A stretch of 39,828 bases of DNA from a virus: IMG/VR virus record IMGVR_UViG_3300042296_001394, positions 1 to 39,828 of that record; one strand, written 5' to 3'. The notes below the pieces were generated by a model. It was not told where the DNA came from. It worked only from the letters and a program-made list of their open reading frames with translations, and ran no database searches. The position numbers and the translations under genes were made by a program. Shown here one piece after another: positions 24,687-39,803 of this stretch; the first letter of the stretch is position 1, and each line of letters begins with the position of its first letter.

Positions 24687-26504
24687 TTACCCCTGATGTG
24701 CAAATGGACCCGAACCGTAATTGACCTTGACGCGCGACCGCGACCGCGCACGTTCGCGCTCTGCCTGCCCCGCTTGGGCATCTTCCCAACCCTCGAACTT
24801 GGTCAGGCCAAGCACGAGATATTGGTTCGCGTCGTGAATGTGACTCCAATCGTTTTTGACCGGCTGATCTTTCCAGCGACCACCGCCGGTGCTGAATTGC
24901 GTGCGCACCATGACATAGCCGCGGTTAAAGCCTTCACGTAGCTTGCGGCACTTGTCCGAAATCACATATCCCGGCTCTGCATCGCCTTTCAGCTTTTCAG
25001 CTACCGCCTCAATACGCGGTCCAATCAGGTTTTGCTTAACCGGCGCTGGCTTCATTTTCAGCTTAACGCCAATCGCAGTTTCGTTGAATCCGGCGACGAA
25101 CTTATGGATGAATGCCCGATCTTCCTGATTTTTTTCGCTGTCACCATACCAGCATGAAGGGTCGGCCCAGCCCAATTCACCCAGCTTACAACCGGCAAAA
25201 TTATCGTTCCAATATTCGCCGCACTCTTGGCCAAATTCCTTGCCACCCAATTTATCGAGCACATCGTCTTTACCGGCTTTGAAAATCACCACTTCATCGA
25301 CGACACGGATCTGTCCCTTCGCAGTTTTTTGCGCGAAAAGGGCGGCGGGCGTGCTGCCACCATCAAGTCCGATATAGATCGGCAAACGGCGATCGACCGC
25401 CATGTCGGCGATGCAATGGCGGCTATCATTGTAACCTGCATAGACCGGGCTTCCGTCGCGCACCGCGCCGAATTTGTTATGGATGAACCGGCGCTTGTCG
25501 CCTTCGGTCATACCGATCTGGATGCGCTCATAATATCCGACCGGCAAATTGCCGATATTTTCGGCACCGGCAGATAATCCACCTGGCTGCACATGGAACG
25601 TCACACGGAAATTGTCGCCGAAACTTGCGCGGTAGGCGTCCATTTGTTCGGGCGACAAACCGATATTCTTGTTGACGTTAAAGTCATACGTCCAATTATC
25701 TTCGGCAGGGGCGTTCATGTCGCCGATCATGCCGGACCAGCCCCCAAGCCGCGTGCCCGGCGCGCGATATCGACCGACGCGCGGAAAGCCATATTTGAAC
25801 ACGTCGATGTGCAAGGTGTCCATTTCGTTCAACCACAGGCCAGTAAGCGCCATACCCTTGAACAATTCTTCGGCGGATTGATTATCGACCGCGCGGAAAA
25901 GCATTTCCAGCTCAAGCCGCATGATATCGCCATTGGCTTGCGGAATGGCGAATGACAATTTGTGGGTATTGGTCGTCTGGTTGTAATTTTCCTTGGTCTT
26001 GGGAAACCACATAAACCAATCGGCCATGACGTTGGATTGCAAATGACCATAGGTATCGCGCACCACACACCAGCGCGCACGCCGCACCCCGTCCGGGCCG
26101 GGCGGTTGCCAAATCAGCGAATTGATGATTTTTTGGAAACAGGTCGTCGTTTTGGCGGAGCCATAAGGCCCCATAATCGTTGATACCGCCGCCTTGTCGG
26201 ACCGGAACGCATGTGCGACCGGGCCGACCCAATTCATCGTCAACCCTTTGCTGGCTGCCAGCAATTCACCGAAACGACCAAGGGCTTCGGTCTCGACGTT
26301 AGCGATGTCGATTTGTGCTAACCGCTCACTAATCCGGTCAGCTTCTTGAATTTTCCGCGCTTGCTCGACCGTATTGCTCGACATATCGCGCAGCGGTCGG
26401 GCTTCAATCAATGCCTCGGCGCATTGGTCGAGTATCGGTGCAGTAATCAGGCTGGCCGCCATAAGCGCGTGTAGCGCATTGTCGATGAAGGGTTTAGCTT
26501 TCAT
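24687..26504 (-). CDS. terL: Terminase large subunit
   Basis: The 605-residue protein has a Walker A-like motif MGPYGSAKTTT (about 111-121), a Walker B-like LWLNEMD (about 223-229) and a nuclease-half segment beginning IGLDGGSTPAALFA, with conserved Asp in GLDGG. This is the motor ATPase and headful nuclease that packages DNA through the portal. It overlaps the small-subunit gene by 11 bases and lies directly upstream of the other head genes. The length is normal for the podovirus group. Confidence 0.92.
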   Translation of the reverse strand: MKAKPFIDNALHALMAASLITAPILDQCAEALIEARPLRDMSSNTVEQARKIQEADRISERLAQIDIANVETEALGRFGELLAASKGLTMNWVGPVAHAFRSDKAAVSTIMGPYGSAKTTTCFQKIINSLIWQPPGPDGVRRARWCVVRDTYGHLQSNVMADWFMWFPKTKENYNQTTNTHKLSFAIPQANGDIMRLELEMLFRAVDNQSAEELFKGMALTGLWLNEMDTLHIDVFKYGFPRVGRYRAPGTRLGGWSGMIGDMNAPAEDNWTYDFNVNKNIGLSPEQMDAYRASFGDNFRVTFHVQPGGLSAGAENIGNLPVGYYERIQIGMTEGDKRRFIHNKFGAVRDGSPVYAGYNDSRHCIADMAVDRRLPIYIGLDGGSTPAALFAQKTAKGQIRVVDEVVIFKAGKDDVLDKLGGKEFGQECGEYWNDNFAGCKLGELGWADPSCWYGDSEKNQEDRAFIHKFVAGFNETAIGVKLKMKPAPVKQNLIGPRIEAVAEKLKGDAEPGYVISDKCRKLREGFNRGYVMVRTQFSTGGGRWKDQPVKNDWSHIHDANQYLVLGLTKFEGWEDAQAGQAERERARSRSRVKVNYGSGPFAHQG

Positions 26505-27228
26505 CGGCTATCTCGCTATAATCAGCATCCTGCACCTGCCCACCATGCGACGGCAAAAACTGCATATTCTGGAGTTGCTCTGGTGACAGCTCGGTGTCGT
26601 CCGCCATCGCCGCCAGCGCGGCGGGGTTAGTCAATCCGGCTATATTGAGGATAACGTCAGGTTTCTTGTTGACATCGACCACGATCGGTTGCTTGCCGTG
26701 GACATATGGCGCAACATCGACCAGCGCCGACTTTTTAATTTTCATCGCCTTTTCGGCCAAGTCGCCGGGCTTCATGGCGTGGCGGCGGATTGCATCAAAC
26801 ACGCTGTCGGCAATATCACCTAGTGCATCCAGATAGTCCTGACTCGCTTTACCCTGCAAATCCTCAATTTTGGCCATCAAGCGTTCGGCCATATCTGTTA
26901 GTTTTTCTTCGATCTTGCTTTGCCCTGTGGCAACAACCAACATTTCAACCATTTGGTCAAGCGGCATAAACCCGATGCTGGCCAGCTCCATTACCGGGTC
27001 GCCGTGGACCTGCACGACCATCTGCGCAATTTTTCGGTTGAGCTTATTGGTGGAACCTGGAGGACGCCCTCGACCGCTGCGCACTTGCCTATACGCATCT
27101 TGCGGCAACCGACCATCTTTGTCGCGCAATAAGTCAAGCTGCTCTACGGTCGTTTCAGCGCCAAAAAAACCGGCTCCAATCACCGTTTCGCGCACCGCCG
27201 CTTCAAGGCTCGAAACTTCAGTTGACAC
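26494..27228 (-). CDS. terS: Probable terminase small subunit
   Basis: The GTG at 27228 gives 244 residues (a TTG ten codons upstream is also possible). SGRGRPPGSTNKLNRKIAQM (about 50-69) is a basic DNA-binding-like segment seen in phage small-terminase or DUF5681-like proteins, followed by long helices suitable for oligomerisation and an acidic tail (ADYSEIADES). It lies immediately before the large terminase with an overlap. Assignment is by position and the basic motif. Confidence 0.72.
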   Translation of the reverse strand: MSTEVSSLEAAVRETVIGAGFFGAETTVEQLDLLRDKDGRLPQDAYRQVRSGRGRPPGSTNKLNRKIAQMVVQVHGDPVMELASIGFMPLDQMVEMLVVATGQSKIEEKLTDMAERLMAKIEDLQGKASQDYLDALGDIADSVFDAIRRHAMKPGDLAEKAMKIKKSALVDVAPYVHGKQPIVVDVNKKPDVILNIAGLTNPAALAAMADDTELSPEQLQNMQFLPSHGGQVQDADYSEIADES

Positions 27229-27952
27229 GGTGCACCGCCCCGCATAGCATCGCGGCAACGGCTACATCGGAAGGCACATGCCCGGCGACTTTACCCCTTA
27301 CCCCTTTGGCATCCACGCCACTTCCACCGGAAACACCGCAGTTTTCGGCTAATTTTTGGCCAAATCGGTCCGCCCGCACCCCCGACCCCGTTTGAACAAA
27401 TTGAAGTTCGCCGACCTCCGAAACCTTGTGATTGCTTAGCAAAGCCGATGGTCCGGTTTCGGCCTTTTTTTCAAATCTTGGTCCTGCGCATCCGCGACGG
27501 GCATTGCGGGGGTGCGTCGTCGCGAAAGGGGGCACCCCCCCCGCCCGATCTGGCCGCGTGATCAAGGCCACCCCGCCCTGCCCAACAGCGACCAGCCAGC
27601 GTGGCGGATAACTAACGGTTAGACGACCGGCACCTTGTAACCCGCAGAAATTCGCGCTTTTCATGCTACCGTGCGACGCTGGCCATGCGACGATGCGACA
27701 GCCGACCCGCTGAAACCCGCAGAAATCCGTGCTTTCGAAGAAACGGGCCGCAACAGCCCGAGAGCTGTGCGACCCGTTCCGACATGCTAGGTCAACGACT
27801 ACACCAGCACCATCGAGCGCACCAATCCGGCGCGCCGATCCCAAAAAATTCTGCCGATCCAGACAAACACCCCGACCAAACACCCATCGAGAGCGGAAAC
27901 CGGAATTTCCACCCATTAGAATATTCGCCGAAGTCGGAACGCATGACGCCAT
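27218..27952 (-). CDS. Doubtful ORF upstream of the terminase genes
   Basis: A 244-codon frame begins with ATG just inside the leftward promoter at 27962-27992 and ends overlapping the terS start. Its location fits a first late gene, and the C-terminal 80 residues look protein-like (KVSEVGELQFVQTGSGV, RFGQKLAENCGVSGGSGV). However, the first half is built from repeat DNA (two FCG-F/L-Q peptides encoded by TTTCTGCGGGTT repeats) and contains the att-like segment. It may be partly or wholly non-coding. Confidence 0.28.
   Translation of the reverse strand: MASCVPTSANILMGGNSGFRSRWVFGRGVCLDRQNFLGSARRIGALDGAGVVVDLACRNGSHSSRAVAARFFESTDFCGFQRVGCRIVAWPASHGSMKSANFCGLQGAGRLTVSYPPRWLVAVGQGGVALITRPDRAGGVPPFATTHPRNARRGCAGPRFEKKAETGPSALLSNHKVSEVGELQFVQTGSGVRADRFGQKLAENCGVSGGSGVDAKGVRGKVAGHVPSDVAVAAMLCGAVHRVN
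27508..27539. other. GC-rich inverted repeat near the terminase genes
   Basis: GGGGGTGC (27508-27515) and GCACCCCC (27532-27539) form a perfect 8-bp stem with a 16-base loop. There is no U-run on either strand. The location upstream of the terminase pair makes it a candidate packaging or RNA-structure element. It would fall inside the doubtful 244-codon ORF if that ORF is real. Confidence 0.45.
27612..27730 (-). other. Internal attachment-site-like segment
   Basis: On the minus strand, TCGCAT/TCGCAC repeats (27700-27671, including CAGCGTCGCAC) are followed about 41 bases later by CCGGTCGTCTAAC (27630-27618). That 13-bp match to the attachment core extends to 16 of 18 positions. The right attachment region has the same order with a gap of about 53 bases. 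ACCCGCAGAAAT, also present next to attR, occurs here twice (27640 and 27715 regions, plus strand). It looks like a relic or duplicate of an attachment region. Confidence 0.5.
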
Positions 27953-27992: not shown

Positions 27993-28007
27993 CGATATCA
28001 ACCGCCG

Positions 28008-28217
28008 TTCTAAATGTTCTATCCATAGAACGGTCTAAGTATATGTAATAGAACGTAAATCAGGCGCTTGTTCTGCGTTCTGCACGTCGCGTGCGCATAA
28101 GGCGCACACATACATACGCACATGGAGAAAATCGGCGATAGAACAGAACGATAGAACAAAACGCCAAGATATTGAAAAACAACATATAACGATAAGTCAA
28201 TGCAGAACATTTAGAAC
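28008..28217. repeat. YAGAAC repeat cluster bracketed by a 14-bp inverted repeat
   Basis: Eleven copies of TAGAAC or CAGAAC, in either orientation, lie in 210 bp (28008, 28017, 28027, 28050, 28071, 28078, 28139, 28144, 28152, 28203, 28212). The outermost pairs are an exact inverted repeat: GTTCTAAATGTTCT at 28008-28021 and its complement at 28204-28217. GTGCGC/GCGCAC and GTTCTAT/ATAGAAC dyads lie inside. The region is AT-rich, has no gene, and sits between oppositely oriented promoters, so it may be a replication origin or multi-site operator. Confidence 0.65.
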
Positions 28218-28358
28218 ACCCCCCGACCCGCAGAAACAGCCAAAAATCGGCCCAATATCTTGCTTGTTTCAACGGGTGCGGGTTCGGGTGCAGCGGCACA
28301 AAGCCATAGCGCCACGCCCCAAAACACAGCTTTGTGGCGGATAGAGAGAGAATGATGA

Positions 28359-28397
28359 AGCCGTGCGCACCGCGCGCCGGCGGCGCGCTGCACGGCT
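28359..28397. other. Long GC-rich hairpin between the repeat cluster and the early promoter
   Basis: AGCCGTGC (28359-28366) pairs with GCACGGCT (28390-28397), and an inner GCGCGCC (28372-28378) pairs with GGCGCGC (28382-28388) around GGC. No U-run follows in either direction. It could be an origin-associated structure or an insulating element. The stretch 28218-28420 otherwise contains no supported gene. Confidence 0.6.
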
Positions 28398-28421
28398 GAT
28401 TGGGCGTATGAAAAAAACCTA

Positions 28422-29596: not shown

Positions 29597-29846
29597 ATCA
29601 TTCCCCTTGCAAATTCCTGCAAAGCCTGCCATATCCAGCCCTGCAAGGCAAGTCGCCTTGTCGGGATTGGGAACCCGCTTATGTAGGCGCACCCAGCGCC
29701 ACGGCCCTGCCTGAGGCGCTTTCTTTATGGCCGGACGTGGATGGGGCAGCAAAAGCTGCGCCGTTGCCTACAGCGGTATTTCCAACCCGCCACGCCCGGT
29801 CACCAAGCTATTGGGAAAGCTTGACCGGCAGACTGTAGGAATTGCC
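29597..29846 (+). promoter_or_regulatory. Structured leader upstream of the antirepressor, P4-immunity-like
   Basis: This 250-bp stretch holds a terminator-like hairpin (AGCGCC 29695-29700, GGCGCT 29715-29720, then TTCTTT), further hairpins (AAGGC/GCCTT near 29645, GCAGC/GCTGC at 29747-29760) and two long overlapping open frames. One of them, in frame with the antirepressor, begins at 29727 (AVAYSGISNPPRP). This resembles the leader or antisense-RNA regions seen before Ash-like or antirepressor genes in many prophages. A regulatory small RNA is possible but not shown. Confidence 0.45.
29695..29727 (+). terminator. Terminator or attenuator in the antirepressor leader
   Basis: A 6-bp stem AGCGCC/GGCGCT with a 14-base loop is followed by TTCTTTA. 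The stem is short, so partial termination is more likely than a full stop. It lies about 120 bases before the antirepressor start. Confidence 0.45.
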
Positions 29847-30575
29847 ATGAACGATATACTAAATTTGACATTCGAGAACCAACCTGTCCGCATCGTCCTG
29901 CAGGACGGTGAACCGTGGTTCGTCGCCACCGACGTCGCTTCGATCTTGGGTTACAGCCACGGCCCACACATGGTTAGAATAATGGATGACGATGAAGCTG
30001 CTGTCCACATTATGGACACCAGCGGGCAAAACCGCGAAGTTTCTATCATTTCCGAATCGGGCCTATACAACGCGATCTTCAAGTCGCGCCGGGCGGAGGC
30101 AAAGGCGTTCCGCCGCTGGGTGACGGGCACCGTATTGCCAACGATCCGTCAGACAGGGCAATTTGCGTTTTCTGCAAATTATCCGCCAGTCCCCGATATG
30201 CGCCGTTTTGACGATGCCGCTTGGCTCAACGCGGGCGTTGCTGCGGTGCGAGAGGCGCGGCGCTTGTTCGGCCATGGCGTCGCGCGCGCCGTGTGGCGCG
30301 ACATCGGCCTGCCTTTGCCGGAAAATGCGATGCCGGCCTTGCCCGATGGCCTGTCCGATGCCGTCAACCTGTGGACCGATGGCCGCGACCGATTTACTTT
30401 TGCTGATCTTGCGGCGGGTCTGGGTCTGGGCGAACCCGACTGGCCATTGAAACGTCGCTTTTCCGACATATTGACCGCCTTGGGCTGGACCGAGAAACGC
30501 ACACGGCGCGGCAATGGCTTGGTCTATGCGTGGCACCGGCCAATCGAAACCGTCAATGCGGAGGAAGCGGCATGA
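29847..30575 (+). CDS. BRO-N domain antirepressor-like protein
   Basis: The ATG at 29847 has AGGA seven bases upstream and gives 242 residues. Residues 3-105 form a BRO-N domain: VRIVLQDGEPWFVATDVASILGYSH, then IISESGLYNAIFKSRRAEAKAFRRWVTGTVLPTIRQTG. The C-terminal domain, DRFTFADLAAGLGLGEPDWPLKRRFSDILTALGWTEKRTRRGNG, looks like a winged helix. Such phage proteins counteract repressors or regulate early genes. An upstream in-frame start at 29727 would add a 40-residue Ash-like segment. Confidence 0.85.
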   Translation: MNDILNLTFENQPVRIVLQDGEPWFVATDVASILGYSHGPHMVRIMDDDEAAVHIMDTSGQNREVSIISESGLYNAIFKSRRAEAKAFRRWVTGTVLPTIRQTGQFAFSANYPPVPDMRRFDDAAWLNAGVAAVREARRLFGHGVARAVWRDIGLPLPENAMPALPDGLSDAVNLWTDGRDRFTFADLAAGLGLGEPDWPLKRRFSDILTALGWTEKRTRRGNGLVYAWHRPIETVNAEEAA

Positions 30576-30763: not shown

Positions 30764-31188
30764 AGCAACCGCGCCGATTGGTCCCTTGTGCAGCTGGGCC
30801 AATGGAACCTGGTCGGCGCGGACTTGTCCGTGCTGAACCTGTACCAACTGCAATCGTCGGTCGCGTCATGCTTGCTGTTAAGGAACCATTTGAGGCGGCC
30901 GACACTGACAATATCGGTGCACAGCCGCTGGCCGATGGATGTCGCCGCCTTTGTGTGCGGCCAGCTACTATCAAACAATAACCATACCTCGTCGGCAATG
31001 GCCGTAAAATGTTCGATTAACGGGTGCAGCGCCGCCGCCAACTTTTGGCCGATGGTCAGTTGAATATACTCGGCACCAGCCTTGCCATTTTTGCTTATGT
31101 TCATCTTGCGCGACGCCACTTTGACGCCACTGGAAAAATCAGGCGCGCCAGTATTGGCCACCTTGTTTATTAAAACGGAATACCCCAT
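30760..31188 (-). CDS. Hypothetical protein at the end of the replication operon
   Basis: The 142-residue product starts at an ATG overlapping the helicase stop (TAATG), with AAGGAG eight bases upstream. It contains KNGKAGAEYIQLTIGQKLAAALHPLIEHFTAIADEVWLLFD and several Trp/Ser/Thr-rich segments; no motif was recognised. The operon position suggests a replication or recombination accessory, for example a DNA-binding protein, but this is a guess. Confidence 0.72.
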   Translation of the reverse strand: MGYSVLINKVANTGAPDFSSGVKVASRKMNISKNGKAGAEYIQLTIGQKLAAALHPLIEHFTAIADEVWLLFDSSWPHTKAATSIGQRLCTDIVSVGRLKWFLNSKHDATDDCSWYRFSTDKSAPTRFHWPSCTRDQSARLL

Positions 31189-33071
31189 TACTCAGCTCCT
31201 TCTTTACTGTTCCAAAACGATTTAAGCGGTATCGCCACGGCATTTTCGCTGCCGCCTGGGTTGAACCGGATTTTAAGCCCGCTGATGCATCCGTCGATTT
31301 TTTGCATCGACTGTATCCATTTTCCGGCTTCCCACTGGCTGCGCGAAAACAGGTCGCACAAGGGCGATGACGTGGGATAGGCGACCGCCAGATAGGCATT
31401 TTCGTCCTGCAACCACGCGTCTTTTATTTTGCGTTTACGGTCGATTGTTTCAAAACGGATAAGGCGCAGGCCAACGGTTTTCAGGCGTTCACGTGCTTTC
31501 TGGTCGATGCCGTGGCTTTCATTTGTTACTGGGTCGATGATTGGCTTTAATGCCCGGTCGATCCACTGCCCAACCGTTTCCGCCGCCGCGCCATGTGCGC
31601 CTTGCAATGTCTTGGCGAGGAGGAACGGCATAACCGTTTCGGTATCGCTTAACGCCTCACCCTTGCCGACGGCTAACATCGGCAGGATCAACCGGGTCCA
31701 TGCTTTTTCAGTCGGGTTTTCTGCATCTTCGGTGCGATTGCGCGGCGCATCGTCAAACAACAGCAGATCGGCGCAGGCCAACAATGTGCCAAATGTGTCG
31801 GCCCATCGTCCACTATAGCCATGGCTTGAAATTTCGCGCTTATATGTCGCCAGCGTTTCGGCAAGGCGCGGCCATTGTTGCACCATGCGGCGGTGCATTT
31901 TGCGTCCGATTTCGCGCCAATAGGACACATCGAAACTTAACGGCGCAACCCCTTCTGGCACCTGAAGCATGTCCAGCTTGGCAACACGGTTGCGATGTTC
32001 GCCCTTCAATGGCGCGTGCAGGACGCACGACAACATGAAACAGCTTTGCGCCGTAAATTCCTGCGCCTTGTGATCTTGTGACCCTCTAATGATTTTGCCG
32101 CCCGACGACGCCTTTTTCATCAGGTTCAATATCGCAATTTGGCGCTCTCCATTATCGTCGCCCTCGGCTTCGTCGAGCAGGAAAGGCAAGGTATCGTCAC
32201 CCAATATTTGCCGTATTGCCGCTTCGCTGGCATCTTCGGCAAACAAGGTCCAATCGCCATGCAACGCACGAAACAGGCTTTGTAAATAGCTTTTACCCGC
32301 AGCGGTCGGGCCGGTGGCAAGCACATGGCTGCGCCACGTCAATGCGCCGCAAATGTGCATCTGTGCCGAAAAACCCAAAAGCAATAATGTCGCTGCATCT
32401 TGTTCACGAAAGAACCATCGGTTGAACAATGCGCGAAGCTGCTTTCCTTCCTCGACCGTGCTGATGTCTTTGGCGGGTGCGGGCAATGTCGGCAGCGCGG
32501 GGAAATAACTTTCCCCAACGCGGCCTGCCTTCACAACGCTAATCGGCTGATCGGTCTGTGCCCCGCGCCAGTCGGTGGCGCTGGACAACATGACACGGTT
32601 GCCCATGTGCAGTATTAACTGTGTATCGTCATCCCGCGACCGGTGGGCCCCACGGCCAAACACACGGTTGACCGGGTTAAATATGCCCTTGGCATAGCAG
32701 GCGGACAATAAATCGACCTGGACTTCTTTTTGGTTGAACCCGTCTTTAACCGGCTCGCTTTGCCCTTTGCCCGGCTGTTTCCATTGCGGCCAGCGTTCGT
32801 CGAGATATTCACAGCCGCCAAAAAGCAGGATCAAGTCCCCTTTTTTGCAGTCTGTTTTCATGTTTATGATCTGGCTAGACGCATCAAGCACCCAAATGCT
32901 TTGCCCTTGCACGCCCAACGCGGTCACAGGACAATTTTCGGGCAAATAGCTGAACAATTGCCTTTCCTCGCGCTGCTCCTGCGACTTTGCCTTCCGCCGC
33001 CGCATATCGGGCGCGGGCTGCGGAGTCGCCGCTGCGGCGGCAACCGCCTCGATGTTGCTGGAATCGGTCAA
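31188..33071 (-). CDS. Replicative helicase/NTPase of the primase operon
   Basis: A TTG at 33071 overlaps the upstream stop (TTGA) with AGGTGA just before it; a GTG at 33122 is the alternative and would overlap by 55 bases. The 627-residue form has Walker A GPTAAGKSY at about 254-262 and Walker B LPFLLDEAEGDD at about 295-306, after an N-terminal region containing conserved FNPVNRVFGRG. The layout resembles DUF927- or D5-like phage helicases. It probably works with the adjacent primase at the prophage origin. Confidence 0.82.
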   Translation of the reverse strand: MTDSSNIEAVAAAAATPQPAPDMRRRKAKSQEQREERQLFSYLPENCPVTALGVQGQSIWVLDASSQIINMKTDCKKGDLILLFGGCEYLDERWPQWKQPGKGQSEPVKDGFNQKEVQVDLLSACYAKGIFNPVNRVFGRGAHRSRDDDTQLILHMGNRVMLSSATDWRGAQTDQPISVVKAGRVGESYFPALPTLPAPAKDISTVEEGKQLRALFNRWFFREQDAATLLLLGFSAQMHICGALTWRSHVLATGPTAAGKSYLQSLFRALHGDWTLFAEDASEAAIRQILGDDTLPFLLDEAEGDDNGERQIAILNLMKKASSGGKIIRGSQDHKAQEFTAQSCFMLSCVLHAPLKGEHRNRVAKLDMLQVPEGVAPLSFDVSYWREIGRKMHRRMVQQWPRLAETLATYKREISSHGYSGRWADTFGTLLACADLLLFDDAPRNRTEDAENPTEKAWTRLILPMLAVGKGEALSDTETVMPFLLAKTLQGAHGAAAETVGQWIDRALKPIIDPVTNESHGIDQKARERLKTVGLRLIRFETIDRKRKIKDAWLQDENAYLAVAYPTSSPLCDLFSRSQWEAGKWIQSMQKIDGCISGLKIRFNPGGSENAVAIPLKSFWNSKEGAE

Positions 33072-33658
33072 CTGTTCACCTGTGGATATCGGCAACGGAC
33101 CTTCAACCCATGCAGCGGGCACGTCACAATGCCATCGGCATCGGGTTCAAATTGCGACAAATCGACCTTTTTATGAGGGCACAGCAACCGTCCATCGGGG
33201 CGTTGAATTGCGCCTGCCGGATCGGTGAACCGCGACCACATTATATGTTCTTCACTCGGCTTAAACGGCAAGGGCCAATGCAATTCAAGATTTGTGCATT
33301 TGCGCTTTTCTAAAGTGGGTTTGCGCGGGATCGGGCCGTATTTTTTCACATTACATTCACGGTCCTGATCAATTTCCGACAAAGGCCAGATGTTATATTT
33401 ACGGAATAAAAAAGTTTCGCCACCGCGCCATCTCGTCTCTTCCTTAAAAGCTACGCGCTGCTGCTTACGCGTCAGAAAACGCGCGTCGATGTGATAGTGT
33501 ATCGGCATAAAGCCTATTTCGGCGTCATGATGTGGTGGGCCGATAACTGGCCATGATGCAACCATTCCATGCCAATCATAACGGACGCATGGCACCAGAT
33601 AATATTTCCCGACAACCGGCGGTTCGCGCAGGTCAGTGATTTTTTGCAACTTGCTCAC
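33068..33658 (-). CDS. Rieske-type [2Fe-2S] protein in the phage replication operon
   Basis: The 196-residue protein has a C-terminal Rieske signature: Cys160-x-His162, 17 residues, Cys180-x2-His183 (LCPHKKVDL... and VTCPLHGLKV), exactly the C-x-H/C-x2-H ligand spacing. The N-terminal part (residues 1-150) is aromatic-rich (VRYDWHGMVASWPVIGPPHHDAEIGF) and not recognised. GTG start overlaps the primase stop (GTGA), and its stop overlaps the helicase start. A redox-active cluster next to primase and helicase is unusual. Cluster binding is inferred from the motif only. Confidence 0.8.
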   Translation of the reverse strand: MSKLQKITDLREPPVVGKYYLVPCVRYDWHGMVASWPVIGPPHHDAEIGFMPIHYHIDARFLTRKQQRVAFKEETRWRGGETFLFRKYNIWPLSEIDQDRECNVKKYGPIPRKPTLEKRKCTNLELHWPLPFKPSEEHIMWSRFTDPAGAIQRPDGRLLCPHKKVDLSQFEPDADGIVTCPLHGLKVRCRYPQVNS

Positions 33659-34743
33659 GCTGCGCTCTCCATCTTCACACCGCGCAACACATCGTTGAAA
33701 TCCTTATATTCATGCGGCGGCCATAGGATGCTGACACCGCGCACTTCGCCGTCCGTCGTCATTTGTTGGTCGGCTTGCTCTTGTTGCAATGCGATGCACG
33801 CTTCCAATGCGGCAACCGCATCGCGCGGCTTGTCGGGCTGGCGCTTGTCCCATTGCCCGACGATCACCAGGTCGCCCGCTTGGGCTGGCAATATCAACGA
33901 ACCAATTTTATCCAGCGTCCCCGCCGCCAATACCCGCCGCGTTGGGTCCACCATTGCGATGGTGAGCGCGTCTTCAATCCCCTCGCTGACATAGACGGGC
34001 GTGCCCGCGTCGATATCGCGCAGCGTCTTTGTGCAACTGCCTTTATGGATCGGCATGGCCGCGCCTTTGAACCCACCTAAAATCGACTTTGGTGTATCAA
34101 GATTGGCTTTCACCCAACCTTTGCCCGTATGCTCCAAAAACGTGCGGTGCGTGGCGATATGCTTGCCATCGATGCCGATTATTGCGGTGACGACGGCGGG
34201 GATATTGCGCCGTAATTCGGCGTTCCAGCAATCATGCCGATATCGGATTGCGCCCGGCAACTTACCTAATTTGCTAAAATCAATGTGGCGACCCTCAAAA
34301 TATTTCTGCGCGGGCGTGTCCTTCATCGGCGCGGCAAATTGCCACAATCCGCGCGCCGACTCCTGCTTTTGCTTGGCCGCTTCTTCCTCGCTGCGCTGGC
34401 GTTCAATGCGGCGCTGCTCGACCTCGGCGCGGTTGGCCGGCGTATCAAACGAAATCCCTGCATCGGCCTCAAGCATCCGCAGCGCATCCATAAACGTCAT
34501 GCTTTTGCGCTCAATCACATATTTGATCACATCGCCGTTCCAGCCACAGCCAAAACATTGCGCAAATTGCTTGGCGTCATTGATCATGAAACTGCCTGTG
34601 CGCTCACCGTGGAACGGGCAACAGGCTTCTTGTTCGCTGCCCTTCTTGGTTAGTTTCAGGTCGACGCCGACAATAGACGACATCGGCACGCGGTCCTTGA
34701 CCGCCCGTGCGCGCGCCTGAAGGTCTGTGGTCCCCACCTTCAT
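33655..34743 (-). CDS. DNA primase (CHC2 zinc finger and Toprim)
   Basis: The 362-residue protein has a CHC2-type zinc finger (Cys42-Pro-Phe-His45, Cys63-x2-Cys66 in CFGCGWNGDVI) and a Toprim domain beginning TPVYVSEGIEDALTIAM (about 248-264, acidic Glu254) followed by LVIVGQWDK (about 292-300). It is a short phage primase without a fused helicase; the helicase is the separate downstream gene. It makes primers for phage replication. The start lies nine bases after a readthrough ORF. Confidence 0.9.
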   Translation of the reverse strand: MKVGTTDLQARARAVKDRVPMSSIVGVDLKLTKKGSEQEACCPFHGERTGSFMINDAKQFAQCFGCGWNGDVIKYVIERKSMTFMDALRMLEADAGISFDTPANRAEVEQRRIERQRSEEEAAKQKQESARGLWQFAAPMKDTPAQKYFEGRHIDFSKLGKLPGAIRYRHDCWNAELRRNIPAVVTAIIGIDGKHIATHRTFLEHTGKGWVKANLDTPKSILGGFKGAAMPIHKGSCTKTLRDIDAGTPVYVSEGIEDALTIAMVDPTRRVLAAGTLDKIGSLILPAQAGDLVIVGQWDKRQPDKPRDAVAALEACIALQQEQADQQMTTDGEVRGVSILWPPHEYKDFNDVLRGVKMESAA

Positions 34744-34752
34744 GATCCAAAC

Positions 34753-35103
34753 CTATCCTGTCGTTTCAGCATGGCGGACACCCACGGCGAATACAGCTTC
34801 GCCATGAATGCCCGCGTCATTGGCCCGGCGCTCACCCGAAACGTGGGAAAACGGGTCGCCGGACCCATGATTGGTTGCAGGGGTCGGACTCGAACCGACG
34901 ACCTCTTGGGTATGAACCAAGCAAGCTACCGCTGCTCCACCCTGCAATCTGTGAAATATTTCAGATATCGACTTGACCTTATGCCGCTCGGTCCCGCGTT
35001 TGCTGCCGTCAGGGCCATAAAGTTCGGGACAAGCGCCAAGCACCTGCGCGCGCCGCTTACGCGTTTCCCATCCTTTGATCGAAGCGGCGCGGCTATCACG
35101 CAC
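34753..35103 (-). CDS. Possible small gene reading through the phage tRNA
   Basis: A GTG at 35103 overlaps the upstream stop region and begins a 116-codon frame with a basic N-terminus (RDSRAASIKGWETRKRRA). After about 52 codons it enters the tRNA gene, where it spells HTQEVVGSSPTPATN, the usual translation of tRNA sequence, and ends nine bases before the primase. The first half could be a genuine small DNA-binding protein truncated or extended by the tRNA. Coding status is uncertain. Confidence 0.35.
   Translation of the reverse strand: MRDSRAASIKGWETRKRRAQVLGACPELYGPDGSKRGTERHKVKSISEIFHRLQGGAAVACLVHTQEVVGSSPTPATNHGSGDPFSHVSGERRANDAGIHGEAVFAVGVRHAETTG
34872..34946 (-). tRNA. Phage-encoded tRNA-Met(CAT), initiator-like
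   Basis: A complete cloverleaf folds on the minus strand: acceptor TGCAGGG/CCCTGCA, D-stem GAGC/GCTT, anticodon stem CTTGG/CCAAG with loop TTCATAC (anticodon CAT), T-stem GTCGG/CCGAC with TTCGAGT loop, discriminator A and encoded CCA. A11:U24 in the D-stem is an initiator-type feature; the T1:A72 pair and only two G:C pairs next to the anticodon loop are less typical. It lies inside the leftward replication operon. Confidence 0.88.
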
Positions 35104-35359
35104 GGTGAGACCAATCCTTATCTGCAATTGGCGTGATTACGCCACCATCTGTGATAAGCGTATCGGGGTCACTGTTCCATGATGGCTGAAATTGCGCCGC
35201 TTCGCGCGCCCGGTCCGGCACCCGCCGCGCCGCCGCCAATTCCTTTTCCAACTGTTCACATGCCGCAGGCGGCAGGCCAATGCGGAAATCACGGATGAAC
35301 AACTGCACCTCGCCCTTATTCTCGTTCCACACGATCTGGATATCGATATCGGCTTTCAT
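35096..35359 (-). CDS. Small hypothetical protein downstream of the leftward regulator
   Basis: The ATG at 35359 overlaps the regulator stop (ATGA) and has AAGG just upstream, giving 87 residues. MKADIDIQIVWNENKGEVQLFIRDFRIGLPP suggests a small beta-hairpin protein, followed by a helix (ACEQLEKELAAARRVPDRAREAAQF). No motif was recognised. Its start and coupling show that it is co-transcribed with the regulator in the replication operon. Confidence 0.7.
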   Translation of the reverse strand: MKADIDIQIVWNENKGEVQLFIRDFRIGLPPAACEQLEKELAAARRVPDRAREAAQFQPSWNSDPDTLITDGGVITPIADKDWSHRA

Positions 35360-37921: not shown

Positions 37922-38110
37922 ATGGAGGCCGACTTGACTATTTCCAACACCGAAGAATTCCGCTCCCTTGTGGACCGGCATGGTGGCCCGGCTGCCGTTT
38001 CTCGAAAATTTGATGTCGGACGGCGATCACTTAATCGGCTGCTCAATGGCTCTCAACCACCGCCGAACAATTTGCTCGATGAAATGCGCACGGCAAAGGT
38101 GCCATCATGA
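37922..38110 (+). CDS. Small HTH protein upstream of integrase (excisionase or regulator candidate)
   Basis: The 62-residue product contains a single helix-turn-helix-like segment, FRSLVDRHGGPAAVSRKFDVGRRSLNRLLNG (about residues 13-43). GGAGG lies inside the annotated start, so a TTG at 37934 may be the real start. It is coupled to the integrase by ATGA. This is the usual place for an excisionase or integrase regulator; a winged-helix excisionase fold is not obvious. Confidence 0.62.
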   Translation: MEADLTISNTEEFRSLVDRHGGPAAVSRKFDVGRRSLNRLLNGSQPPPNNLLDEMRTAKVPS

Positions 38111-39387
38111 CCCGCAAGCGCAGCAAGGGCCGCATTGGTATCCCCAACCTGTTCCCCGTCGAATTGGCTGGCGGCGTCATCAAATATCATTGGAAACCGA
38201 CTCCGCGCATGCGCCGCGCGGGCTGGGCTAATCTGGATTGCGGCACGGATCGCGCGACCGCTATTCAACTGGCCGAGGCACGCAACGCTGAAATCGCCAC
38301 TTGGGACGCTGGGCTTAACCATGCTGGCCTTGGCCATAATGGCGGGCCTTCACTGTCTGACATGCGCCCGCGCAGCATGCGCGAACTTGCCGACGCATGG
38401 ATGCGCAGCGACCATTTCCGCAACACACTCGCGCCAAAAACACAGCGGCTATACAAACACAGCGCCGACAAGTTGATGATCTGGACCGAGCAAGGCAGCA
38501 TTCCCGTTGCACATATCAGCCGCGCCGCATGTCTTGAACTGCGCGATCACTTGGTACGCAGCGGCCAAAAAAGCGCCACCGCCAACACATTGCGCGTTTT
38601 GCGCGTCCTTATGGCTTATGCCGTTGATCGCGGCATCATCGCCGTAAACCCTGCGCTAAAAATGCGCATCCCCGAATCCGACCGGCGAACCCACATCATT
38701 GACGCCCGCGCAATTGACTTGCTCGACCGCGCCGCAACTGCGCTGCATCTGCCATCGGTCAGGCTTGCCATGCTCATTGGCTTTTGGACTATGCAGCGTG
38801 AAAGTGACCTTCTCGCTTACACTAAGGCTGATTGGCGCATCATTCCAGCGGTAGACGTCCCGCCCGAAGCGCGGTGCGCCCTGTCCGACGCACACGGCAA
38901 TGTATGGGGCTTCAAAAAGGCGCAGCAAAAAACCAAGCTGCACGTATGGCCATCGGTGCCGCCCGCCGTGCGCGACCTTGTGCATACGACCATAAAGGCC
39001 AATGAAGCGCGCGACGTGCCAACCTTTGTCATCTTGCCAGATGACCGCATGGCAAAACGCTACAGCGACAAACAGTTTCAGCGCCGCTTTAGCCAGGTGC
39101 GCATCGTCGCATGGTATGGCGCCATCCTTGCGGGCGATTGGAGGCTGGCCAAGCATATCCGCAAAACCCAATTCCGCGACTTCCGCCGCACGGGCATGTG
39201 CTATTTTGGCGAATTGCGCGTGCCGGTGCCATTGATTGCCGCGATCAGCGGGCACAGCATCAACTACACGCAAAAGATTATCGACACCTACATGCCAGCC
39301 AACAACCGCTTTGCCGTCATGGGCCTAGCCGAAGCCATAACCCGCGCCGCCGAGCGCACAGTGATCGAAGAAAGGTTAGAGGGATGA
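38107..39387 (+). CDS. int: Tyrosine recombinase, prophage integrase
   Basis: The 426-residue protein has an N-terminal arm-binding or SAM-like part and a catalytic domain with Arg231 in TMQRESDLL, Lys276 in QQKTKLHVW, Arg360 in FRDFRRTG, His383 in ISGHS and nucleophile Tyr395 in IDTYMP. His of the usual H-x-x-R pair is replaced by Arg357, as in many phage integrases of this type. It lies 340 bases from attR on the same strand as the tRNA. Confidence 0.92.
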   Translation: MTRKRSKGRIGIPNLFPVELAGGVIKYHWKPTPRMRRAGWANLDCGTDRATAIQLAEARNAEIATWDAGLNHAGLGHNGGPSLSDMRPRSMRELADAWMRSDHFRNTLAPKTQRLYKHSADKLMIWTEQGSIPVAHISRAACLELRDHLVRSGQKSATANTLRVLRVLMAYAVDRGIIAVNPALKMRIPESDRRTHIIDARAIDLLDRAATALHLPSVRLAMLIGFWTMQRESDLLAYTKADWRIIPAVDVPPEARCALSDAHGNVWGFKKAQQKTKLHVWPSVPPAVRDLVHTTIKANEARDVPTFVILPDDRMAKRYSDKQFQRRFSQVRIVAWYGAILAGDWRLAKHIRKTQFRDFRRTGMCYFGELRVPVPLIAAISGHSINYTQKIIDTYMPANNRFAVMGLAEAITRAAERTVIEERLEG

Positions 39388-39729: not shown

Positions 39730-39751
39730 TCCCCGGTCGTCTAACGGTAAG
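39730..39751 (+). repeat. attR core within tRNA-Gln
   Basis: The exact 22-bp repeat of attL forms the 5' acceptor strand and D-arm of the complete tRNA-Gln. Because the intact tRNA is here, the part of the gene 5' of the crossover point is phage-derived. Confidence 0.92.
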
Positions 39752-39803
39752 ACTACGGACTCTGACTCCGTCTATTGAGGTTCGAATCCTTACCGGGGAA
39801 CCA
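39730..39803 (+). tRNA. tRNA-Gln(CTG)
   Basis: The cloverleaf is complete: acceptor TCCCCGG/CCGGGGA, D-stem GTCT/AGAC with AACGGTA loop, anticodon stem ACGGA/TCCGT with loop CTCTGAC (anticodon CTG), T-stem TGAGG/CCTTA with TTCGAAT loop, discriminator A and encoded CCA. Its 5' part is the attachment core. The 25 bases after it show nothing recognisable. Confidence 0.95.

Follow-up and report, generated by a model that had tools for sequence, protein, structure and literature searches.

A two-sided array of short iterons as a probable replication origin in tailed phages encoding a SaPI Rep/Cch-like helicase

Genomic setting of the array

The DNA analyzed here (hereafter, the window) is a 39,828-nt IMG/VR virus record, IMGVR_UViG_3300042296_001394, derived from a phage that is temperate and carries a T7-like connector (PHROG 332). 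Its closest relatives are found in sphingomonads, specifically in Sphingomonas and Stakelama genomes (among them L015 in Sphingomonas hankookensis and L016 in Stakelama pacifica). Its leftward genes encode structural proteins, the connector, the large terminase (TerL; 24687-26504, minus strand), which is 34% identical to TerL of Burkholderia phage BcepC6B, and, adjoining TerL, a putative small terminase (TerS; 26494-27258, minus strand) that has homologs in relatives and whose start codon is uncertain. Approximately 0.75 kb of non-coding DNA separates terS from an array of short repeats at 28007-28217, on the far side of which lies a rightward run of small open reading frames (ORFs) that includes a Bro-N gene. 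The divergent promoters placed around the array in the initial annotation are candidates recognized by eye. Next come a leftward helicase gene (31188-33122, minus strand; Walker A motif GPTAAGKS), whose product has a C-terminal half predicted to form a helix/strand domain, and, in the same replication module, a gene for a CHC2/TOPRIM primase (33655-34743, minus strand; Pfam Zn_ribbon_DnaG, 5.6e-24; PHROG 510, 4e-41), followed by repressors and an integrase. An ORF lying between TerS and the array (27218-27952) probably does not represent a true gene, because its substitutions relative to the related locus L018 are distributed 22/38/32 over the three codon positions, compared with 9/5/15 for TerS.

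Eleven iterons surround an alternating purine/pyrimidine centre

The window contains 26 copies of the hexamer YAGAAC, 11 of which fall within 28007-28217. From the 15 copies located elsewhere, 0.08 would be expected per 211 bp, corresponding to a Poisson P of ~2e-20 for a motif that was chosen afterwards. When any 5-mer was permitted, the cluster score reached a log10 p of -11.4; among 100 Markov-shuffled versions of the window, the lowest value was -8.4. The YAGAAC cluster reported in the initial annotation is therefore real, although it begins at 28007 rather than one base later, and the unit that is conserved is the 5-mer AGAAC and not the hexamer. This unit takes the form RGAAC in close relatives and NNAAC or similar in distant ones.

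The outer block adjoining terS (28007-28031) contains two minus-strand iterons (28007-28011 and 28016-28020) and one on the plus strand (28027-28031). It is followed by a first AT-rich spacer (28032-28069; the segment 28021-28069 is 63% AT), which carries an extra plus-strand iteron at 28050-28054, and by an inner block on the minus strand (28070-28081) whose iterons, 28070-28074 and 28077-28081, are 7 bp apart. The centre (28083-28138) holds a 23-nt run of alternating purines and pyrimidines (28102-28124), which is the sole run of this kind of at least 16 nt in the 39.8-kb window. On its other side are an inner block of three plus-strand iterons (28140-28157; 28140-28144, 28145-28149, and 28153-28157), a second AT-rich spacer (28158-28202; 71% AT) containing AAGATATTGAAAAACAACATATAAC, and an outer block on the plus strand (28204-28217; iterons 28204-28208 and 28213-28217). 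Thus, the AT-richness originally ascribed to the background as a whole applies to the two spacers only, the centre being 45% AT. Read in the direction of terS, the iteron order is >>|>>>||<<|>|><<, with five sites on one side of the centre and six on the other. GC skew across the window was uninformative.

The outermost segments of the array form an inverted repeat in which 28007-28020, GTTCTAAATGTTCT, is paired with 28204-28217. As initially described, this 14-bp match is exact in the window; however, it is not maintained in relatives, and in L018 one side of the repeat reads GTTCCGGATGTTCT. What relatives retain instead is a pair of sites, spaced by 9 bp, on each flank, and the terminal inverted repeat is a by-product of these symmetric site pairs. 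An outer block of the form GTTCT-n-AGAAC-attt-AGAAC is common to the window, L018, and L025, and is degenerate in L015, L021, L026, and L027.

Array anatomy persists while the iteron letters drift

A DNA-level search of annotated phages yielded no match. Using the helicase as the search query, we recovered 79 and then 80 loci. Close relatives (TerL 98% identical) retain the array with small changes. Relatives with 66-73% TerL identity seem bare when scanned for YAGAAC, yet they carry 6-11 copies of RGAAC at the same place, and distant relatives (TerL ~30%) have 8-12 copies of TAGACA, AGACAG, GGGACA, or GAGACA there. Overall, a strict array is present in 103 of 119 non-redundant loci encoding the helicase (one of the 103, L219, is a tandem repeat), so that an equivalent non-coding array accompanies the helicase in ~100 relatives. 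In several of the 16 remaining loci (L015, L089, L090, L095, and L099), the array is of mixed letters and escaped the strict scan. Among the 5-mers seen across phages are AGAAC, GGAAC, GTAAC, CTAAC, GCAAC, AGACA, and TCACA. The iteron letters therefore drift between phages while the anatomy persists.

This anatomy consists of multiple short identical sites clustered within ~200-300 bp of non-coding DNA. The most frequent number of sites is 12 (42 of 103 arrays), with 11 sites in 16 arrays and 13 sites in 13, and the commonest split about the widest gap is 6|6 (28 arrays). For the 39 arrays with exactly 12 sites, the two commonest orders, >>><<<>>><<< (nine arrays) and ><<<>><<>>>< (eight arrays), are both dyad-symmetric, being identical on both strands. 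In 12-site arrays, 111 of the 112 spacings between inner neighbors measure 8-9 bp, and outer neighbors are mostly 11-12 bp apart. The two spacers of ~36 nt in these relatives have a mean AT content of 59%, as opposed to 36% for the background, and the centre of ~67 nt contains an alternating purine/pyrimidine run with a median of 22 nt; the median for random 60-mers is 6 nt, and only 0.3% of them reach 22 nt. The window array is irregular compared with these relatives, both in having 11 sites and in the order in which they are arranged.

When the arrays were masked, only 7% of 57 loci reached the same score elsewhere. Among ten loci with a related TerL that do not encode the helicase, three reached the array score (L045, with short tandem palindromes; L047, with 12 copies of CTAAC; and L062, with AGGATA) and seven lack an array (L035, L040, L046, the two BcepC6B loci L061 and L063, L070, and L074). 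The CTAAC sites of L047 (2668-2940) are divided 6/6 in an AT-rich phage locus, with no family helicase in the stretch covered, and perhaps constitute another iteron origin. In Jeremy, Touem01, phiT5282EW, and PY223, phages with a fused primase-helicase, no clear array was evident within the stretch read. Long hexamer arrays of a different type, with 18-25 copies of ACGGCT, CCGTAG, or AACCGT, are present in L092 (at 3641), L106 (5015), L133 (2406), and L069 (1331); in the first three, nearly all copies share one orientation. These arrays are unlike the candidate origin arrays.

The helicase as a candidate initiator

An AF2 model of the helicase (pLDDT 79.8) has as its best solved match the SCCmec protein Cch (5dgk; Z 17.0 over 446 residues), and it also matches MCM proteins and SaPI5 PriRep1 (7om0, Z 14.8; Foldseek E 7.3e-8 to 7pds). 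By this model, the phage encodes a helicase of the SaPI Rep/Cch fold. No relative emerged when solved structures were searched by protein sequence. A match to DUF927, the domain named for Cch, was obtained for 2 of 16 members of the helicase family. The C-terminal domain is predicted well (pLDDT 86.8); when taken alone, it yields weak fold matches (Z <=3.2), mostly to winged-helix DNA-binding domains, together with residues 347-474 of PriRep1.

Covariation was used to look for the protein that reads the iterons. In Mantel tests, motif distance correlated with helicase, primase, TerS, and TerL distances to a similar degree (r 0.31-0.37 each, TerL highest), and genome-wide motif/protein distance correlations singled out no binding protein, the helicase included. 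At helicase residue 546, Arg or Lys accompanies GAAC iterons (28 of 33 basic), whereas Ala, Val, or Leu accompanies TAAC (0 of 22 basic); the pattern held in new loci, where the residue is basic in 0 of 14 TAAC types and 2 of 4 GAAC types. The tree contains only three changes of motif letter, however, so the link between residue and letter is not phylogenetically independent and may reflect shared ancestry. As a recognition rule, residue 546 is consequently reduced to a lead.

Replication origin or packaging site

The window array very probably represents the phage replication origin, and the phage's own ring-shaped helicase is its likely binding protein. The origin option, raised in the initial annotation, is favored by sequence comparisons revealing the usual 12 sites in two halves, the AT-rich spacers, the co-occurrence with an initiator-type helicase, and the persistence of the arrays alongside unrelated terminases. 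The main rival is a packaging site, of the pac or cosB-like kind, at which the neighboring small terminase would bind the repeats and direct TerL to cut and package the DNA. It merits attention because core-family arrays lie close to terS (median 59 bp) and are nearer to that gene than to the helicase gene, which they follow at a median of 372 bp (98 non-redundant loci), and packaging sites often adjoin terS. TerS homologs accompany every core-family array, and the distance from array to helicase gene is 3 kb in the window and as much as 6.4 kb elsewhere, with the array upstream of the helicase in three loci. Moreover, L067 and L163 show the order array-terS-primase-helicase-terL, in which the array has stayed beside terS and apart from the helicase gene; in combination with the short distance to terS, this is the strongest point in favor of packaging.

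Adjacency to terS nevertheless does not extend to all phages with arrays. The same anatomy is seen in arrays of phages that have this helicase and TerS/TerL proteins not detectably related to those of the window (MinM1, S-H1, ZRG1, Acjo_20, and fHe-Yen8-01). In MinM1, 12 TCACA sites directly follow the helicase gene; in Acjo_20, the array is upstream of and next to the helicase gene, ~4 kb from terS; in fHe-Yen8-01, 10 GGAAC sites lie ~40 kb from the portal gene; and the array of ZRG1 is likewise not adjacent to terS. Serratia phage MQ-4 has 14 GTAAC sites separated from terS by ~2 kb and several genes, if the two ends of its linear record are taken as joined. Conversely, BcepC6B, which has a related TerL and a different replication module, is without an array. 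The dyad symmetry and the usual count of 12 also suit a bidirectional loader of two hexamers better than a directional start of packaging. Because the arrays persist with unrelated TerS and TerL, and because phages with a related TerL that do not encode the helicase are mostly bare, we favor the replication origin and regard a packaging site as improbable.

The second option in the initial annotation, a cooperative operator for an unidentified protein, can be framed as an operator or silencer through which a phage or host regulator controls divergent operons. Such a function would accord with the many sites and with their intergenic position between terS/terL and the rightward small ORFs, but it is superfluous and leaves unexplained why the two-half, 12-site geometry, the AT-rich spacers, and the alternating centre are kept over ~250 bp despite changing flanking genes. 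In many relatives, furthermore, the array sits inside one co-directional helicase-array-terS run, in which divergent promoters are not expected, and we consider a regulatory role very unlikely. A centromere-like partition or incompatibility site bound by a ParB-like protein would also consist of clustered sites in both orientations. No ParA or ParB gene was recognized among the window genes scanned, however, and the phage has an integrase and therefore does not need plasmid-like partition, making this the least credible of the alternatives. The alphaproteobacterial LexA box is a GAAC-N7-GAAC direct repeat; a LexA operator was ruled out, as no same-strand iterons in the window start 11 bp apart.

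A proposed mechanism and its relation to known systems

If the array is the replication origin, the helicase encoded at 31188-33122 would act as a self-loading initiator of the SaPI Rep/SCCmec Cch type, with its C-terminal domain binding the AGAAC iterons. One hexamer would assemble on each side of the array, using about six iterons and forming around the AT-rich spacer, such that the alternating purine/pyrimidine centre lies between the two opposed hexamers. Together they might then open the duplex and, with the DnaG-like primase of the phage, start bidirectional theta replication. Twelve sites in two halves of six would fit two hexamers, although the step from site count to hexamer number is one that we infer. 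We regard it as possible, if somewhat doubtful, that the number and order of sites directly encode assembly of the double hexamer. Under such a code, each of the six C-terminal domains of a ring would take one iteron, the inner and outer groups would set the ring around the AT-rich segment, and the centre would serve as a conserved non-B-DNA or strand-separation element, leaving the letters free to vary with the helicase as long as the 6+6 arrangement is kept. Were this correct, many tailed phages, forming a large group, would share a geometry-coded, loader-free origin.

Iteron origins of the SaPI type with self-loading helicases are already known, and for SaPI Rep, binding of two hexamers to the origin iterons has been reported. 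The rep-ori modules of SaPIbov1 and SaPI5 resemble the phage arrays in having short repeated intergenic sites near the initiator gene. The phage arrays differ in occurring in both temperate and lytic tailed phages, in their association with a DnaG-type (CHC2/TOPRIM) rather than an AEP primase, and, as far as overall layout is concerned, in usually comprising 12 sites in dyad-symmetric halves about an alternating purine/pyrimidine centre. The cch/cch2 modules of SCCmec are similar in that Cch is the closest structural match to the phage helicase. For Cch2, the bound repeats lie downstream of the gene that encodes it, but there are only three iterons, with the sequence AAGTG, and these modules have a different primase and no phage structural genes.

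More distant parallels exist as well. The ori1 and crr sites of phage P4 are bound by its alpha protein, a primase/helicase fusion, and thus likewise pair an initiator of this kind with clustered short repeats, but the P4 repeat and its layout are different. In the pac site of phage P1, which lies near the small terminase gene and is cut by terminase, hexamers are grouped to both sides of a centre; this site differs in having no link to a helicase gene. In SV40 and papillomavirus origins, dyad-symmetric short sites load two hexameric helicases. These viruses infect unrelated hosts, and their origins have far fewer sites. The DNA-binding domain of their initiators is N-terminal (PMC7581432).

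Three features distinguish the phage arrays from the known SaPI-type origins: a symmetric 6+6 layout, the alternating centre, and a wide distribution across tailed phages. A search of the open-access literature found no paper describing such an array in phages. Most replication genes of this large phage group are unnamed, and for its members an origin and its initiator can now be predicted, with a geometry that can be counted. The ~100 natural variants, in which the 6+6 layout is kept and the letters are changed, bring two questions within reach of a test. One is what positions a pair of self-loading hexamers on a single origin when there is no loader, and the other is how the specificities of initiator and iteron change jointly. 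Orthogonal helicase/origin pairs might also be used to build plasmids for Gram-negative laboratory strains.

Additional features of the window

The non-coding segment between terS and the array (27260-27950) contains repeated CGCAGAAA and TCGCA elements, which by eye are also present in L012, L013, and L014, and is a candidate cos/pac region. Between the array and the rightward genes, 28358-28400 can form a strong GC-rich hairpin with a 5′ bulge, possibly a terminator, and similar hairpins occupy the equivalent place in L011, L012, L013, and L014. Farther to the right, a C4 antisense RNA (29723-29807; Rfam RF01695, 52.8 bits) overlaps the start of the Bro-N ORF (29727-30575), in an arrangement that looks like the C4-antirepressor switch of the P1/P7 type. 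A tRNA-Met is predicted on the minus strand of the early region (34872-34946), overlapping the ORF at 34753-35127, and a tRNA-Gln at the end of the window (39730-39803), just downstream of the integrase gene (38107-39387), is a candidate attachment site.
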